A stretch of 64,000 bases of DNA from contig JAIOPV010000067.1 in the NCBI GenBank assembly GCA_021413735.1, positions 1 to 64,000 on the forward strand. Direction: 5' to 3'. The first letter of the stretch is position 1, and the number at the start of each line of letters is the position of its first letter. This document shows positions 26,536 through 64,000 of this stretch, piece after piece. Made by a program: the position numbers and the translations under genes. The notes under the pieces were generated by a model. The model made no database searches and was not told the origin of the DNA. It was given only the letters and a program-made list of their open reading frames with translations. This DNA is from Planctomycetota bacterium. Its GTDB lineage: Bacteria > Planctomycetota > Planctomycetia > Gemmatales > Gemmataceae.

Positions 26536-27110
26536 GTGAAGAACCTAACCCCCCAACCCCCTTCCCTAGGAAGGAAGGGGGAGCCGGATTTAGCCCCTCT
26601 CCCCTTGGGGGAGGGGTTGGGGAGGGGTCTTTCCCAAGGAGGGGCGTGCTGCTCGGAGTCGATTACGGTGCCGTGCGGGTCGGGCTGGCGGTCTCCGACC
26701 CCGACCGCATCATCGCGTCGCCGCTGGAAACATACACACGGCGTTCCGATCTGCTCGATGGGCCATACTTCGCGAAAATCGCTGCCGATTATCGTGCCGC
26801 AGTGCTGGTCGTGGGGTTGCCGTTGCACGCCAACGGCCAGGAAAGCGACTCATCGCGTGCGGCTCGCACCTTCGGAACGTGGCTCGCGGAAATCACGGGA
26901 TTGCCTGTCGTTTACTGGGATGAACGCTACTCGACGTGGTTCGCGGAAGGGGCACTCCTCGGCGCGAAACTCTCTCACAAGAAACGCAAAGAGAAACGAG
27001 ATCGGGTCGCGGCGCAGATGATCCTGCAAGCCTACCTGGAAGCAGGCTGCCCGCCTGAAGGCACCAAAATTGCGACACCCGACGAAAACCCATCTGACCA
27101 GACTCGTTGA
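26532..27110 (+). CDS. ruvX: RuvX/YqgF-type Holliday junction resolvase-like protein with repeat-derived N-terminus
   Basis: The 192-aa reading frame starts at GTG 26532, overlapping the manC stop (GTGA). The RNase H-like YqgF domain begins near residue 38 (RRGVLLGVDYGAVRVGLAVS) and carries VVGLPLHANGQ, YWDERYSTWFAEGALL and the C-terminal DRVAAQMILQAYLEAG. YqgF proteins act in pre-16S rRNA end maturation or Holliday junction resolution. The normal domain is about 140 aa; the additional first 36 residues are the translation of an 87-base repeat (26542-26628). GTG 26646 directly before LLGVDYG could be the native start, with aaggagg just upstream but with tight spacing. Confidence 0.82.
   Translation: MSEEPNPPTPFPRKEGGAGFSPSPLGGGVGEGSFPRRGVLLGVDYGAVRVGLAVSDPDRIIASPLETYTRRSDLLDGPYFAKIAADYRAAVLVVGLPLHANGQESDSSRAARTFGTWLAEITGLPVVYWDERYSTWFAEGALLGAKLSHKKRKEKRDRVAAQMILQAYLEAGCPPEGTKIATPDENPSDQTR
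26542..26628. repeat. 87-bp quasi-palindromic repeat, copy 1
   Basis: This C-rich then G-rich element (aacctaacccccc ... ggttggggaggggt) contains the inner hairpins cttccctaggaagg and ctccccttgggggag. The 87 bases match the copy at 63219-63305 except for a few positions, and the sequence is stop-free in several frames. It lies at the very start of the ruvX frame. Confidence 0.9.
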
Positions 27111-32276: not shown

Positions 32277-32304
32277 GATCGCTCCAGAATCAGGAAGGAA
32301 GACA

Positions 32305-32382
32305 AGCCACGGATGAACACAGATGAAACACGGATAAGTCAAAAATCTGCTGCTTTGGTCTTATCCGTGCTCATCCGTGGCT
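32305..32382. repeat. gene-less relative of the GxxExxY terminal repeat
   Basis: The left arm 32305-32337 matches the terminal repeat at 55789-55821 base for base over its length. The right arm 32361-32382 is the reverse complement of the same word with an 11-base deletion. The 23-base centre has no gene, so this is a miniature or decayed copy. Confidence 0.85.
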
Positions 32383-32393
32383 ATGCTTTCGAT

Positions 32394-34100
32394 TTAACCC
32401 TGGAAATCCTTGGCGAATGCCTTCGGGTTCAGTTCCTCTTCCGTCGCGAATTTCGTGAGTTGTTTCCAGGTCATCGTGCGGCCTGGCTCGAAGACCCTTT
32501 TCTTCATGAAGTCGCCAACCTTCTTGTCGCCGTTGTACAGCACCTTCGATGGGGGGGCACCGAAGACTTCCTTCGCGATCATGTGGTGAACCTGCGACGC
32601 GAACAACTGCCCCATCATGTAATTGTGGTAGTACACCGGAGCGCTACAGATGTGGATCTTCGCAGCGTAATCCGGTGCGTTGCGATCTTTCGGACGCTTT
32701 ACCTGCTGATACTTCTCCACAAGATCCCACCAGGCTTTGTTCAGGTCTTGTGCTGGGTCTTCATACATCGCCTTCTCGAATCGCAGCATCACCTGACACC
32801 ACCGACTGAAGATGAGCAACTGATTCCGTTGCGTCTTCGAGGCGGCTTCGTCGAACGCTGCGGGGTTCTCGACTTTCAAGCCCATCTTCTCGATCCATGC
32901 TCGCGACTTGCTGAACCGTTCGAACTGCATCGCCACGCCTTCGGTCGTGAGGATGTGGGCCTCGCCCCGCAGGAGATACGGCAACTTCGCGGGAATGTTC
33001 AGGCTCGAATACACCGAGTGCCCCAATTCGTGGAGCATCGTGCCCATCCAGTATTCGTTGTTGACGATGTTCGCCAGCACGCGAACGTCGCCTTCGCGGT
33101 CGATGTCGGTGCAGAAGGCGTGAGGGCTTTTCCCCTTCTTTTCCTTGAGGTCGCTCTTGGCCAGCACGCGGTCGACGGGCAGCCCGATGCTGGCGTAGAA
33201 CGTCGAACACAGGGCGGGGATGTCCGCTTTCGCAAATGGAGTGTCGAGGTTCGCATCGAAAACGGCAGGCGATTCCTGGAAGAACGGATCGTGGTAGTGC
33301 CACGGCATCAGTTCATCCACGGCGACGCCGAGTTTCTTGGCGAGTCGCCCGTCGATGTCGCCTTTCGCATCGGCGAACGGCTTCTTCGTCAGGTCGTCGA
33401 GTTCGTCGAACAGCTTGATGAGTTCCGGTCCATCCTGCTCATTCAGCGTGAGCATCATGTGATGGAAGTTCTTGAAGTTGAGCTGCGTCGCGGCCTCGTT
33501 GCGGAGTTTCACGAGTTCTTTGAGGTCGGCCTCGACCACCACACCGACGCCCTTGCTTGCCTCCCAAACTTTCTTGCGGATCGTCGAATCCACGGATTGC
33601 TTCAGCGTGCTGCGAACCTTGCTGTCCGGATACTCTTGCCCGTCGATCTTCGCACGGTAGACGTTGAATGCCTGCTCGACCGCGTTCGCCTTGGCCGTGA
33701 TCTTCTTGAGCAGTTCGGGCTGCACCTGCTTTTCGAGGTACATCAGGTACAGTAATTCGACTTGGCGGGCAATGAGCGGATCCTTGATCTTCCCAGCATC
33801 GGCCGCCGTTTTGATGCCCTTGAGCGTCGCGAATGGTTTCGGTTCGGAGAGTGCCGCGTCGATCTTGTTCTGAGCGTCTTCCTTCTTCTGGAACTCCGCG
33901 TCAGTGCCGAGAACGTTGGCGTCCCACCATGCTTTGTTGGCGATCAACTCTAACGGCTTCATCTTCGCTTCGTGCGCGGTGATGAACTCCTTCGCGGCTG
34001 CGACGGGATCAGCCGGTTCCTGGGCAGAGACATCGGACGCGATTAAACCTGCCACGGTGGCACCTCCAGTAATCAGGAAGTTGCGACGATCGGTATTCAT
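32394..34100 (-). CDS. secreted M2-family (angiotensin-converting-enzyme-like) metallopeptidase
   Basis: This 568-aa zinc peptidase belongs to the peptidyl-dipeptidase A (M2) group, which trims dipeptides from peptide C-termini. The N-terminal MNTDRRNFLITGGATVAGLI is a twin-arginine-type leader. The zinc site is HELGH (His357-His361) with the third ligand expected in ILTTEGVAMQFERF; DAFC-like CTDIDREGDVRVL and IHICSAPVYYHNYMMGQLFA with substrate-binding Tyr residues agree with M2. Length is close to that of a single ACE domain. It is the first of a minus-strand group with the small peptide and the membrane protein; a solo repeat lies directly behind it. Confidence 0.88.
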   Translation of the reverse strand: MNTDRRNFLITGGATVAGLIASDVSAQEPADPVAAAKEFITAHEAKMKPLELIANKAWWDANVLGTDAEFQKKEDAQNKIDAALSEPKPFATLKGIKTAADAGKIKDPLIARQVELLYLMYLEKQVQPELLKKITAKANAVEQAFNVYRAKIDGQEYPDSKVRSTLKQSVDSTIRKKVWEASKGVGVVVEADLKELVKLRNEAATQLNFKNFHHMMLTLNEQDGPELIKLFDELDDLTKKPFADAKGDIDGRLAKKLGVAVDELMPWHYHDPFFQESPAVFDANLDTPFAKADIPALCSTFYASIGLPVDRVLAKSDLKEKKGKSPHAFCTDIDREGDVRVLANIVNNEYWMGTMLHELGHSVYSSLNIPAKLPYLLRGEAHILTTEGVAMQFERFSKSRAWIEKMGLKVENPAAFDEAASKTQRNQLLIFSRWCQVMLRFEKAMYEDPAQDLNKAWWDLVEKYQQVKRPKDRNAPDYAAKIHICSAPVYYHNYMMGQLFASQVHHMIAKEVFGAPPSKVLYNGDKKVGDFMKKRVFEPGRTMTWKQLTKFATEEELNPKAFAKDFQG

Positions 34101-41753: not shown

Positions 41754-41814
41754 GGTTTCATTGGTTGCATTGTCTACTTCTCGGCCTGATCCGTGGAAGG
41801 CTCACGGCACCGCC

Positions 41815-41896
41815 GCCCTAGGGGGGAATTCCCCCTTCTAGGAACCACGATTCCGGGGTTGTTCCAGACCTAGAAGGGGGAATTCCCCCCTAGGGC
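41815..41896. repeat. long perfect palindrome, 28-bp arms
   Basis: The arms 41815-41842 and 41869-41896 are perfect inverted copies around 26 bases. Each arm itself contains the self-complementary word ggggggaattcccccc or a near version, so nested folding is possible. Outside the arms the words aaggct and caccgc also recur in inverted order. Confidence 0.85.
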
Positions 41897-42053
41897 GAAA
41901 GCGGTGCTGGAACAGCCTTCCTTGAGAAGCATGCCAAACCATGTGCTCGGACGACGCAACATCGTCCTGTCGCAGAGCGACGAGCTAAACCAACACAACC
42001 AATGCGAGTAAAGTACCCGTGGCCGCTTTGCTTCGCAATCTTGGGAGTCAAAA

Positions 42054-55265: not shown

Positions 55266-55781
55266 ATGAACACGACCGACGCCCAACCCGACGCACCCGA
55301 CGCAATCGACCATCTCCTCGCAGGCTGGCAGGAGACACGCCCTGATCTCGACCCCACCCCGCTGGGGGTGGTCGGGCGGGTAATCGTGCTGGCACGACAC
55401 CTCGAACAGAGCGTTGGCACGGCTCTGGAAAAGCACGGCCTCACGCTGGGTCAGTTCGACATTTTGGGAACGCTTCGTCGGCACGGTCCGAAGGGTGGTC
55501 TGACGCCGAGCGAGCTGCTTGAGAGCGTGATGCTTTCGAGCGGCGGCATGACGGCCCGCCTCGACAAGTTGGAAGAAGCGGCGTTAATCGCTCGCGGTTC
55601 CGACGCCGAGGATCGCCGGAAGGTGGTGATCCAATTGACCGCGAAGGGCAAGCGATTGATCGACAGCGCGACCGCGACCCGCTTCGAGGAGGCGAAGGGA
55701 TCGCTGCCGAAGATGTCGCAGGAAGAATTGGAAACGCTGGCGGAACTGCTGCGGAAATGGTTGGCAGACTTGGGAACTTGA
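55266..55781 (+). CDS. MarR-family transcriptional regulator
   Basis: This 171-aa winged-helix regulator has an N-terminal dimerisation helix (LGVVGRVIVLARHLEQSVGT), the recognition region LTLGQFDILGTLRRHGPKGG, LTPSELLESVMLSSGGMTAR, LDKLEEAALIARGSDAEDRR with the wing, KVVIQLTAKGKRLIDSATAT, and a helical C-terminus. MarR proteins answer to phenolic or oxidative ligands; the ligand here is unknown. The final stop codon (TGA, 55779-55781) abuts the terminal repeat of the GxxExxY element, whose first base coincides with the last base of the stop. Confidence 0.9.
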   Translation: MNTTDAQPDAPDAIDHLLAGWQETRPDLDPTPLGVVGRVIVLARHLEQSVGTALEKHGLTLGQFDILGTLRRHGPKGGLTPSELLESVMLSSGGMTARLDKLEEAALIARGSDAEDRRKVVIQLTAKGKRLIDSATATRFEEAKGSLPKMSQEELETLAELLRKWLADLGT

Positions 55782-55836
55782 AAGACAGAGCCACGGATGA
55801 ACACAGATGAAACACGGATAAAACCAAAAGGCAGAT
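55781..55836. repeat. left 56-bp terminal inverted repeat
   Basis: Begins aaagacagagccacggatga and ends caaaaggcagat. It starts at the last base of the MarR stop codon. Confidence 0.92.
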
Positions 55837-55849
55837 TTTGAGTTCAGAA

Positions 55850-56218
55850 ATGCAGCTTCCAGACCAAGAGATCACCGAACACATAATTGGGGCCGCGTTC
55901 GAGGTACACAACCACCTCGGATACGGGTTTTTGGAGAAGGTGTATCAGCGTGCGATGAAGGTCGAACTCGAATCTCGCGGATTTGTCGCAGAGATCGAAA
56001 CCGACATCCGCGTGAATTACAAGGGCGTCGAGGTTGGTCTCTATCGGGCGGACATTTTGGTTGCAGGTCGCGTTTTGGTTGAGTTGAAAGTTGCTTCGGA
56101 GTACTGCCCAGCAGATGAACCACAGCTTCTCAACGAATTGAAGGCCACCGGGATGAAGGTTGGCCTTCTCATCAACTTCGGGCGTCACAAGGTTGGCTTC
56201 AAACGCTTTGTCTTCTGA
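55850..56218 (+). CDS. GxxExxY protein, PD-(D/E)XK nuclease-like
   Basis: From ATG 55850 (TTG 55838 is an alternative) this encodes 122 aa. The family signature is GYGFLEKVYQRAMKVELE, with G-x-x-E-x-x-Y in GFLEKVY. The nuclease-like core is LYRADILVAGRVLVELKVAS, with Asp in ADI and E-x-K in ELK arranged as in PD-(D/E)XK enzymes, and QLLNELKATGMKVGLLINFG follows as usual. Function is unproven; a DNA nuclease is inferred. The gene fills the interior of an inverted-repeat element, which suggests it is carried by or drives that element. Confidence 0.85.
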   Translation: MQLPDQEITEHIIGAAFEVHNHLGYGFLEKVYQRAMKVELESRGFVAEIETDIRVNYKGVEVGLYRADILVAGRVLVELKVASEYCPADEPQLLNELKATGMKVGLLINFGRHKVGFKRFVF

Positions 56219-56223
56219 TAACT

Positions 56224-56279
56224 ATCTGCCTTTTGGTTTTATCCGTGTTTCATCTGTGTTCATCCGTGGCTCTGTCTTT
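56224..56279. repeat. right 56-bp terminal inverted repeat
   Basis: Exact reverse complement of 55781-55836, starting six bases after the stop codon of the small gene. Confidence 0.92.
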
Positions 56280-56288
56280 ACTCTTTGG

Positions 56289-56567
56289 TCACTCATCCAC
56301 CACGTCTTCGATCTTCGAGATCGCGACCACTTCCGTGCGGCGAATCAGCACACGCTTCCGGTTCCGCTTGATGCCAGTCGCCACGGACTCCGCCACATAC
56401 AGTTCTCGTGTCGTTTCGGTGTCGCGGAGGTCGTGCAAGTCCGCGTTTCGTAGCTCCAGATAGTGGTCGTCGTACCGGACGAGCTTCCCCATGCAAACAA
56501 AGGGGCTCACCATATCGACCACGACCTTCGATTCCAAGAATTCATCGAGCATGATGCGTCTCGTCAC
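56289..56567 (-). CDS. small LSm-like conserved protein
   Basis: This 92-aa protein has a short N-terminal helix (LDEFLESKVVVDM) and a pattern like the Sm fold: VSPFVCMGKLVRYDDHYLEL resembles the Sm1 stretch (gkxxxGxLxxyDxyxnl) and RKRVLIRRTEVVAISKIED resembles the Sm2 end (xxIRGxxVxxIs). The two are separated by a charged loop, DLHDLRDTETTRELYVAESV. An RNA-binding or small regulatory role is only an inference; I know similar short proteins from planctomycetes without assigned function. Its start overlaps the lipoprotein stop by four bases (ATGA), so it is translated in the same operon as the lipoprotein/DUF1559 pair. Confidence 0.65.
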   Translation of the reverse strand: MTRRIMLDEFLESKVVVDMVSPFVCMGKLVRYDDHYLELRNADLHDLRDTETTRELYVAESVATGIKRNRKRVLIRRTEVVAISKIEDVVDE

Positions 56568-62732: not shown

Positions 62733-64000
62733 ATGGCAAAGGATTTCCCACACCGACGGGTTCTTCCGCTCGCTCCGCTCCTCGCGCAGTTCAGGAACAC
62801 CTGCGCGCTGCTAACCGCTGCCCCAACCTTCCAGCCCGACACACTCGATCACACTCCCGACGCCATTCTCGCGGACGAACTGCAACGGTTCGCGTCGTCG
62901 GTGCTGCCCGTCGTCTTTCACCCCGACGTGTTCCGTCGCGAAGTCGGATTCCTCAGGCACGCGCTGTCGCACTTGTTTCGGGGTCACGATGCGTTGCCGG
63001 AACGGCTGTCTCGCTGCGTCACGCCTGGCGAAGCGTATCACGTCCCCGGAATCGGGCCTGGCTTCTGGTCGGCAATGCTGCAAGTGTCGGCAGCCGGTCC
63101 GCTGTGGTGCCCTGCGGTCGAACGCGGTTTGCGAGCGTTGGGTCTGTTCCCAGATAACCCGCGAAGCGTCGCGGAGCGATTCGCCGCAACGGTGGCAGGT
63201 TGCGAGGAAGTTGGAAGAAACCTAACCCCCCAACCCCCTTCCCTGGGAAGGAAGGGGGAGTCAAAAAAAGCCCCTCTCCCCTTGGGGGAGGGGTTGGGGA
63301 GGGGTTCTGTCTCTGATTTCCTCGAACGTGTTTCGCGGATGACGGGCCGCGAACTTCCCTCGGCGTCGACCGATTCCGCAGCGTTCGCGTGGTCGGTTAG
63401 CTCCGAAGACATTCAACGCTCAGTGCGTGAAATCCGCACCAGGCTGCCCCTCAAGAAACGCCGAGAAGCAACAGCCCCCGCGGTCATCGAAGCGATCACG
63501 CGATTCCTGGCTGAGTCGGAAGCTGGCAATCACGAAGCCGCGTTCGAGGCGTTCCGCAGTTCTTGCCCCGAAGACGCGTGGGAAGCCGCGCTCCCGTTCC
63601 TCGACGATGCCTATTCGCCAGCCCTTCCGCTTGCCGAACGCGCACAACTCTGGTGCGAAGTCGCCCGCGTGTTGCGAGACACCTTCCGCGTTCACCCGCT
63701 GGAACTCGCGGAGTTGGTGACCGTGGCCGGGCAACCGACGCCTGCCCCCGAACCGCAAGACTTCCCGGGCTTCTGTTCCGACACGTTCACGTTCCTCGAC
63801 GAACTCACGACCACCAACAGCCGCGACTGGATGGCCACCAACCGCGACCGTTACCAGTTCGTGTTGCGCGAGCCACTGGTCGAACTCTGTGAGGCGGTCG
63901 CGGAGCGCTACATCCGCCCAGTGCTGAACCGTGAACACGGCTGGGATCTCGAATGCGACGCCCGGAGCGGTCGTGCCCTCACGAGCATCTGCAAGAATGA
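62733..64000 (+). CDS. open-ended protein with in-frame repeat and DUF2461-like C-terminus
   Basis: The frame opens at ATG 62733 and is still open at the window end after 422 codons. The first 155 residues (MAKDFPHRRVLPLAPLLAQF, ELQRFASSVLPVVFHPDVFR, YHVPGIGPGFWSAMLQVSAA) belong to no family I know. Codons 163-191 are the 87-base repeat, read as NLTPQPPSLGRKGE and PLPLGEGLGRG, inserted without breaking the frame. The C-terminal visible part (FTFLDELTTTNSRDWMATNR, DRYQFVLREPLVELCEAVAE) resembles the start of DUF2461. No ribosome binding site was judged decisive. The gene continues beyond the window. Confidence 0.65.
   Translation, partial: MAKDFPHRRVLPLAPLLAQFRNTCALLTAAPTFQPDTLDHTPDAILADELQRFASSVLPVVFHPDVFRREVGFLRHALSHLFRGHDALPERLSRCVTPGEAYHVPGIGPGFWSAMLQVSAAGPLWCPAVERGLRALGLFPDNPRSVAERFAATVAGCEEVGRNLTPQPPSLGRKGESKKAPLPLGEGLGRGSVSDFLERVSRMTGRELPSASTDSAAFAWSVSSEDIQRSVREIRTRLPLKKRREATAPAVIEAITRFLAESEAGNHEAAFEAFRSSCPEDAWEAALPFLDDAYSPALPLAERAQLWCEVARVLRDTFRVHPLELAELVTVAGQPTPAPEPQDFPGFCSDTFTFLDELTTTNSRDWMATNRDRYQFVLREPLVELCEAVAERYIRPVLNREHGWDLECDARSGRALTSICKN
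63219..63305. repeat. 87-bp quasi-palindromic repeat, copy 2 (inside a coding frame)
   Basis: Nearly identical to 26542-26628 and of the same length, with the inner hairpins cttccctgggaagg and ctccccttgggggag. The length is a multiple of three and no stop occurs in the host frame. Confidence 0.9.

Follow-up and report, generated by a model that had tools for sequence, protein, structure and literature searches.

The window, a 64,000-nt stretch of DNA from a Planctomycetota bacterium of the family Gemmataceae, carries a short element in which a single gene lies between inverted arms (Table 1). A repeat search of the window found that the two 56-nt arms are 100% complementary and stand 387 nt apart, a perfect inverted repeat for which a chance origin is far out of range. 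The gene between them belongs to the GxxExxY family and was read from the ATG at 55850 to the end of its stop codon at 56218 (122 aa), whereas a program-made list of open reading frames (ORFs) begins it at TTG 55838 (126 aa). The repeat search and the ORF list agree with the first-pass annotation, which had described perfect 56-bp inverted copies around a single 122-aa gene. Its statement that no transposase is present was also upheld: the GxxExxY gene is the sole gene enclosed, and the inter-arm distance leaves no room for a transposase of the usual size. The element occupies the space between two convergent stop codons, those of a MarR-family gene and of a 92-aa ORF for which there was no Pfam match.

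Table 1. Features of the window at and related to the GxxExxY element.
Feature	Position	Strand	Description
Upstream MarR-family gene	55266..55781	+	Stop TGA 55779-55781; final base of the stop is base 1 of the left arm
Left arm	55781..55836	+	CACRGAT x3 (CACGGAT, CACAGAT, CACGGAT), spacing 10-11 nt
GxxExxY gene	55850..56218	+	122 aa, predicted PD-(D/E)XK fold, GYGFLE subtype; carries the residues invariant in the family alignment
Right arm	56224..56279	-	Perfect inverted copy of the left arm
Convergent 92-aa ORF	56289..56567	-	Stop 56289-56291, 9 bp past the right arm; DNA conservation seen within the genus
Gene-less doublet, same arm	32299..32389		91 bp; right arm partly lost; adjoins the stop of a 568-aa minus-strand ORF (32394-34100)

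Several other repeats were observed in the window. REP-like hairpin doublets TAGGTCAGGCTTTCGAGCCTGACTC lie at 2268/2304, 3407/3443 and 14354/14391, and at 1910-1980 of locus L060, one of them beside a four-helix-bundle gene; they were not found at the 12 Y1_Tnp loci examined. A perfect 29-bp hairpin CGCCCTAGGGGGGAATTCCCCCTTCTAGG with a loop of 26 nt occupies 41814-41897, and a direct repeat of 87 bp (92% identity, C-rich then G-rich) is present at 26542-26628 and 63219-63305.

We characterized the protein encoded within the arms. It matched TIGR04256 (GxxExxY) with 129.6 bits (cut-off 35) and PF13366 (PDDEXK_3) with 126.7 bits (cut-off 22), the latter being the only Pfam family matched, in keeping with the earlier placement of the gene in the PD-(D/E)XK superfamily. 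Residues G18, G20, L22, E23, Y26, D62, E72, K74, N103 and F104 were invariant in 37/37 aligned members, and Q86 and Y90 were present in 90% or more of them. The QxxxY motif belongs to RecB-like nucleases, and the conserved residues are the set expected of a RecB/Cas4-like nuclease. A structure model of the protein (pLDDT 96.4) gave as its best Foldseek match the Cas4 protein SSO0001 (4ic1; E 1.3e-4, TM 0.57), and structural comparison with 4ic1 yielded Z 9.9 and rmsd 3.3 over 98 residues. Ranked below it were further Cas4-like nucleases along with exonucleases and Holliday-junction resolvases (archaeal 1gef, Z 7.7), and a search for sequence relatives in the PDB gave none that was convincing (best E 0.52). 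The modelled fold resembles that of Cas4/RecB nucleases and GxxExxY is a predicted nuclease, a shared fold not in itself showing activity. In the five closest pairs, with pairs more than 98.5% identical excluded, dN/dS was 0.05-0.08, indicating that the protein is under purifying selection. TIGR04256 was found in 112 of the 246 phylum genomes sampled, with 1 to 15 copies where present. A phage or defence origin was considered and rejected, since phage records, PADLOC and PHROGs all gave no match; a viral-contig scan with a single GxxExxY protein confirmed no relative.

BLAST of the arm against the 9.8-Mb assembly of the same genome returned 57 matches at E ≤10, the weakest of which are probably due to chance. 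They resolve to 24 arm pairs spanning 84-515 bp, every pair in the same convergent orientation, and two unpaired arms with no partner within about 2 kb. A GxxExxY gene lies inside two of the 24 pairs, the one in the window and C214, and the other 22 hold none. The genome has eight GxxExxY genes, only two of which are surrounded by the 56-bp repeat; four others lie within different inverted repeats, the flanks of a fifth bear similar word arrays (by eye), and the sixth is close to a contig end. At L009, L011, L015, L019, L020, L021, L025 and L028, arms made of a second word are nested inside outer CACGGAT arms, giving these elements the appearance of one hairpin having entered the loop of another. 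A single universal 56-bp word was rejected, since six of the eight GxxExxY genes lack it. The rule is that each GxxExxY gene has its own word.

The association of such genes with inverted arms was then scored without reference to any one word. For each gene, the 300 bp upstream were aligned to the reverse complement of the 300 bp downstream, with mismatched upstream/downstream pairs as control and their 95th percentile as threshold; loci dropped for length were 2/98 (own genome and phylum), 4/80 (named genomes) and 3/34 (four-helix-bundle genes, see below). In the own and phylum sample, whose 60 phylum loci were hand-picked down the TIGR04256 listing before their flanks were seen, with several near contig ends and some others omitted, the median score of the 96 scored loci was 42.5 versus 18 in 960 mismatched pairs, and 74/96 genes exceeded the threshold. 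In the named-genome sample, 54/76 scored genes passed the threshold set by 912 mismatched pairs, compared with 0/119 neighbouring ORFs. About a quarter of the scored GxxExxY genes thus fail the control. The same alignment in direct orientation gave, for the own and phylum sample, a median of 20 and a 95th percentile of 82, the high values coming from loci with neighbouring hairpins; strong direct repeats occur as well at some GxxExxY loci. The 55 named loci scoring at least 30 are spread over at least 14 named phyla, one of them archaeal (two records), single placements being open to error because many records are metagenome assemblies. Among plasmid-collection records with a GxxExxY gene, the arms were clear in 3/8, one of the three being a Sphingomonas element placed between fabD and fabG. 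The first-pass annotation had named as a check whether GxxExxY genes are accompanied by the 56-bp word more often than chance: the part that stood is that inverted arms accompany these genes across phyla, and the part that fell is the single word.

These counts also bear on the notion that the arms are artefacts, either of low complexity or of fold-backs created in assembly. The arms are indeed simple repeats, and metagenome assemblies are frequent among the records, but an artefact of this kind would be very improbable given the lack of arms at neighbouring ORFs, their presence in records described as complete (Sphingomonas, Bacteroides, Bernardetia plasmid records) and their presence in the one-contig genome G003.

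We examined how the arms are built. They consist of a 7-nt word, conforming to CRCRGA(T/G), that is repeated in tandem, most often in three copies (64/158 arms scored); part of this consensus is there by construction, because the word caller requires A at position 6 and favours C, R, C, R, A. The words are spaced mostly by 9-10 nt in GFLE-type genes and by 8-9 nt in GPGLLE-type genes. The last letter of the word followed the protein subtype: at arm scores of at least 30, 69 GFLE genes had T and 2 had G, with 6 undecided, and 46 GPGLLE genes had G and 1 had T, with 3 undecided (Fisher 3.7e-29, without correction for relatedness). These classes were counted by trinucleotides, with loci lacking the G.G.LE motif left out; L032, L034 and L133 appear by eye to be miscounts, and the table was kept as computed. 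A protein tree of 152 rows required 19 changes of the last letter, where 200 shuffles required 62.9 on average and never fewer than 53. The remaining letters gave a weaker signal on the tree, letter 2 giving none within GPGLLE. In nine genomes that have both subtypes, 25/28 genes follow their own subtype, showing that the last letter goes with the gene and not with the genome. A smaller HLEKVY clade has A-rich words such as CACAAAA. The match between word and subtype could nonetheless reflect long joint inheritance without recognition.

To see whether the element is an insertion, 17 regions from relatives corresponding to its site in the window were compared, and both flanks were found in 12. 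The element was absent from all 12, no match to the arm pattern was obtained at these sites, and the GxxExxY genes of these relatives sit elsewhere in their genomes; in G014 the two stop codons are separated by one base. Empty sites in relatives, which the first-pass annotation had named as a check, do therefore exist, and gene and arms, being jointly absent in 12/12, behave as one unit, as it had supposed. At the 91-bp doublet, homology in 17/18 relatives starts at the neighbouring gene, no more than 14 bp from the right end of the doublet, and in the eighteenth it starts further inside that gene; no arm match was seen at the site in those relatives. This is a weaker empty site, because conservation of the left flank is confined to one relative. 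A search for exact junctions yielded no near-identical empty site, and the genus of G171 gave decay states instead. There, the site was found in 4/11 genomes; G171 and G268 have an intact orthologous GxxExxY element, G269 has a copy with an internal deletion and G088 has lost most of it, with the flanks persisting. By eye, and with no near-identical empty site for comparison, the flanks of 19 own elements displayed no target-site duplication.

Retention of an element at one site across species is unusual for a selfish element. Together with the dN/dS of the closest pairs and the archaeal Holliday-junction resolvases among the fold matches, the same-site retention in G171 and G268 would suit a domesticated host nuclease, which would serve the cell at hairpins or cruciforms by junction trimming or fork repair; arms and doublets would then be its binding sites, and their spread slow and incidental. 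We consider this unlikely in view of the patchy presence of the family and its variable copy number in the phylum, the different words used within one genome, the absence of the element from the window site in every relative with both flanks and its loss by internal deletion.

A second gene family was found in the same architecture. Four-helix-bundle genes of PF05635 (23S_rRNA_IVP), or S23 genes, occur in 77/149 phylum genomes, and 27/31 scored loci (4 own, 27 others) exceeded the mismatched control. Their arms are tandem heptamers, with a lag-7 autocorrelation of 0.53 versus 0.31 when shuffled (25 arms scoring at least 30). Thirty plasmid records, mostly of cyanobacteria, have such a gene, and 12 of these 30 were analysed (L406-L417); 6/12 lay above the 95th percentile, a figure held down in part by heptamers shared between unrelated records, and heptamer arrays were visible by eye in most. 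In these cyanobacterial records, heptamer-armed genes stand between genes of the same function (cas6/cas4, cas10/cmr3, nrdB/nrdA), one of them splitting two ribonucleotide reductase genes and others lying between CRISPR-associated genes.

Tandem heptamer repeats have been described in Xanthomonas and Nostoc (PMC4692102), and TAACTGA repeats in Beggiatoaceae (PMC4679880). In X. campestris (Xcc), 70 cases of arrays closely paired in convergent orientation are reported (PMC4692102), an arrangement like that of the four-helix-bundle arms. The solved structure 2gsc of XCC0516 matches the four-helix-bundle family; the available text of PMC4692102 states no link of the arrays to XCC0516 or to any gene, and none is made in what is available of PMC4679880, whereas here heptamer arms enclose four-helix-bundle genes. 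Because genes of another protein family share the architecture, what moves such elements in general may not be the nuclease.

We next turned to the gene-less hairpins, which measure about 80-270 bp and are commonest in congeners with a gene of matching arms, with exceptions. Across 19 genus genomes, the GAT dialect of the arm had 45 and 34 matches in the two genomes with a gene of closely matching arms and 0-6 in the 17 others, and the AAA dialect had 18-131 matches in the six with that gene type and 0-54 in the 13 without it (one-sided Mann-Whitney p 0.006 and 0.004, not corrected for relatedness, the congeners counted as having a matching gene having been assigned after the arms were seen). 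The AAA gene L309 of G017 had flanks too short for arm scoring. The arm of the G007 gene itself has A for G compared with most G007 doublets. G001 and G002 have a gene with arms resembling the GAT dialect, yet show 0 and 1 GAT pattern matches. Also counting against a strict link, the one-contig genome G002 has 51 AAA-dialect arm matches and G004 has 54, both without a GxxExxY gene of AAA type. The closed, one-contig genome G003 has 126 AAA arm matches; among the 73 listed, 28 plus-strand ones were paired and 11/39 had no partner, in a reading that lets two plus matches share one partner. Among the pairs so listed, 27 span 97-239 bp and one of 554 bp encloses the gene. In G007 the two arms of the same element differ on average at 0.19 of 30 sites, 13/16 being identical, and between elements the figure is 1.50.

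The persistence of doublets without the gene in G002 and G004 could mean that the arms are moved by something else (a Y1 or other transposase, or functions of the host) and that GxxExxY is a passenger. The occurrence of Y1_Tnp genes in 16/19 genus genomes and the parallel four-helix-bundle elements, which have no GxxExxY gene, agree with this. However, neither dialect was present within 1.5 kb at any of the 12 Y1_Tnp loci examined (of 80 matches, none from G003 or G004), and G002 gave no Y1_Tnp match despite its 51 AAA arms. In addition, none of the pairs listed for G003 (73 of 126 matches) is long enough for a usual transposase, and the word follows the GxxExxY subtype across phyla. A passenger role thus seems to us rather unlikely too.

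The position of the elements was also considered. In the own genome 15/24 elements lie between convergent genes, compared with 10/55 adjacent gene pairs in the window (p about 2e-6); in G007 only 5/16 were called convergent. As the gene caller behind the counts for the own genome, G007 and the window was crude, a preference for convergent 3' ends can be claimed with fair confidence in the own genome only. This placement would be expected if the hairpins acted at the RNA level, as bidirectional terminators or as inserts processed as RNA by RNase III in the manner of intervening sequences, and spread through recombination or reverse transcription. When two doublets were folded as RNA, both gave strong hairpins (z -6.2 and -18.3), and the S23 intervening sequence (PMC4990558) offers an analogy. 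An RNA-level explanation is nevertheless improbable: the convergent placement did not hold in G007, a GxxExxY element in a Sphingomonas record is placed between fabD and fabG, 20 own loci of about 3 kb contained no Rfam family at gathering scores, and a hairpin alone leaves the link between word and subtype unexplained.

We compared the elements with known mobile DNA. MITEs of known insertion sequences are short, gene-less and many-copied, with inverted-repeat ends, and the gene-less doublets are likewise; they differ in that no transposase-bearing partner was seen in the own genome or among the G003 pairs listed, and in that the gene-bearing copies carry GxxExxY. Unlike autonomous DNA transposons or insertion sequences, the own pairs are at most 515 bp and the G003 pairs listed at most 554 bp long, with no transposase between the repeats. 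The closest parallel is the REPIN-RAYT system, in which, according to PMC3116915, a gene has repeats in its flanking non-coding DNA, inverted hairpin doublets outside genes are thought to be mobile in trans, and co-evolution of gene and repeat has been proposed. GxxExxY is similarly a gene flanked by repeats with dispersed, inverted, hairpin-forming doublets. Conversely, its modelled fold is PD-(D/E)XK (Cas4/RecB-like) whereas RAYT is a Y1 tyrosine transposase, and its arms are tandem word arrays whereas REPs are palindromic; the element's gene in the window matches PF13366 only and is not a Y1 tyrosine transposase. The intervening sequences of 23S rRNA (PMC4990558) are also short elements with one small ORF, of the S23 family that forms the sister class here. 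The GxxExxY element differs from them in lying between protein genes and not in 23S rRNA, in encoding an unrelated nuclease-like protein (PF13366 only, not S23) and in having dispersed gene-less copies.

Taken together, these data are consistent with the locus being one copy of a gene-plus-hairpin system that is REPIN-RAYT-like and uses an unrelated nuclease, a reading to which we give a probability of about 0.5 and in which movement of the hairpins by the nuclease is what we infer. Same-site retention, the low dN/dS and the dispersed doublets fit such a system better than a hit-and-run autonomous transposon. In our model, the GxxExxY protein would read the word array, either as duplex or as an extruded hairpin or cruciform, and would cut at or beside the arms; host repair or replication would then copy the arm-bounded unit to new sites. 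The first-pass annotation had suggested a homing-like or palindrome-processing route, by which the nuclease may likewise drive movement. Doublets may be moved in trans by GxxExxY, in the way proposed for REPINs and RAYTs, and an element could be retained vertically and decay by internal deletion. We prefer, at about even odds, an account in which the word is read and the unit moved by the nuclease; the main doubts concern the nuclease-free sister class, the doublets persisting where the gene is missing and the failure to find exact junctions. More tentatively, and with the balance somewhat against it, the elements may form a candidate class of minimal mobile DNA in bacteria and two archaeal metagenome records. 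In it, a lone Cas4/RecB-like nuclease, in an element devoid of transposase, recombinase or reverse transcriptase, would read the 7-nt word repeated in tandem in the inverted arms and would spread gene-less hairpins along with itself, word and protein evolving together. The S23 sister class would account for the heptamer repeats known from cyanobacteria and Xanthomonas, and perhaps for those of Beggiatoaceae.

A search of the open-access literature gave no report of the arm strings, and the mention of GxxExxY read there does not concern arms. Judged from this search, the gene-plus-hairpin arrangement has the look of a minimal kind of mobile DNA that has not been described. It offers a function-level hypothesis for a large protein family that has no assigned role and is present in nearly half of the phylum genomes sampled, and simple repeats become linked to a gene. 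The rule relating word to subtype makes the predicted DNA recognition directly testable through word swaps. If the four-helix-bundle parallel holds, the tandem heptamer repeats described in PMC4679880 and PMC4692102 would be arms or remnants of such elements. If true, the spread of DNA by a nuclease with no transposase involved would add to the known routes by which small DNA units multiply within genomes.
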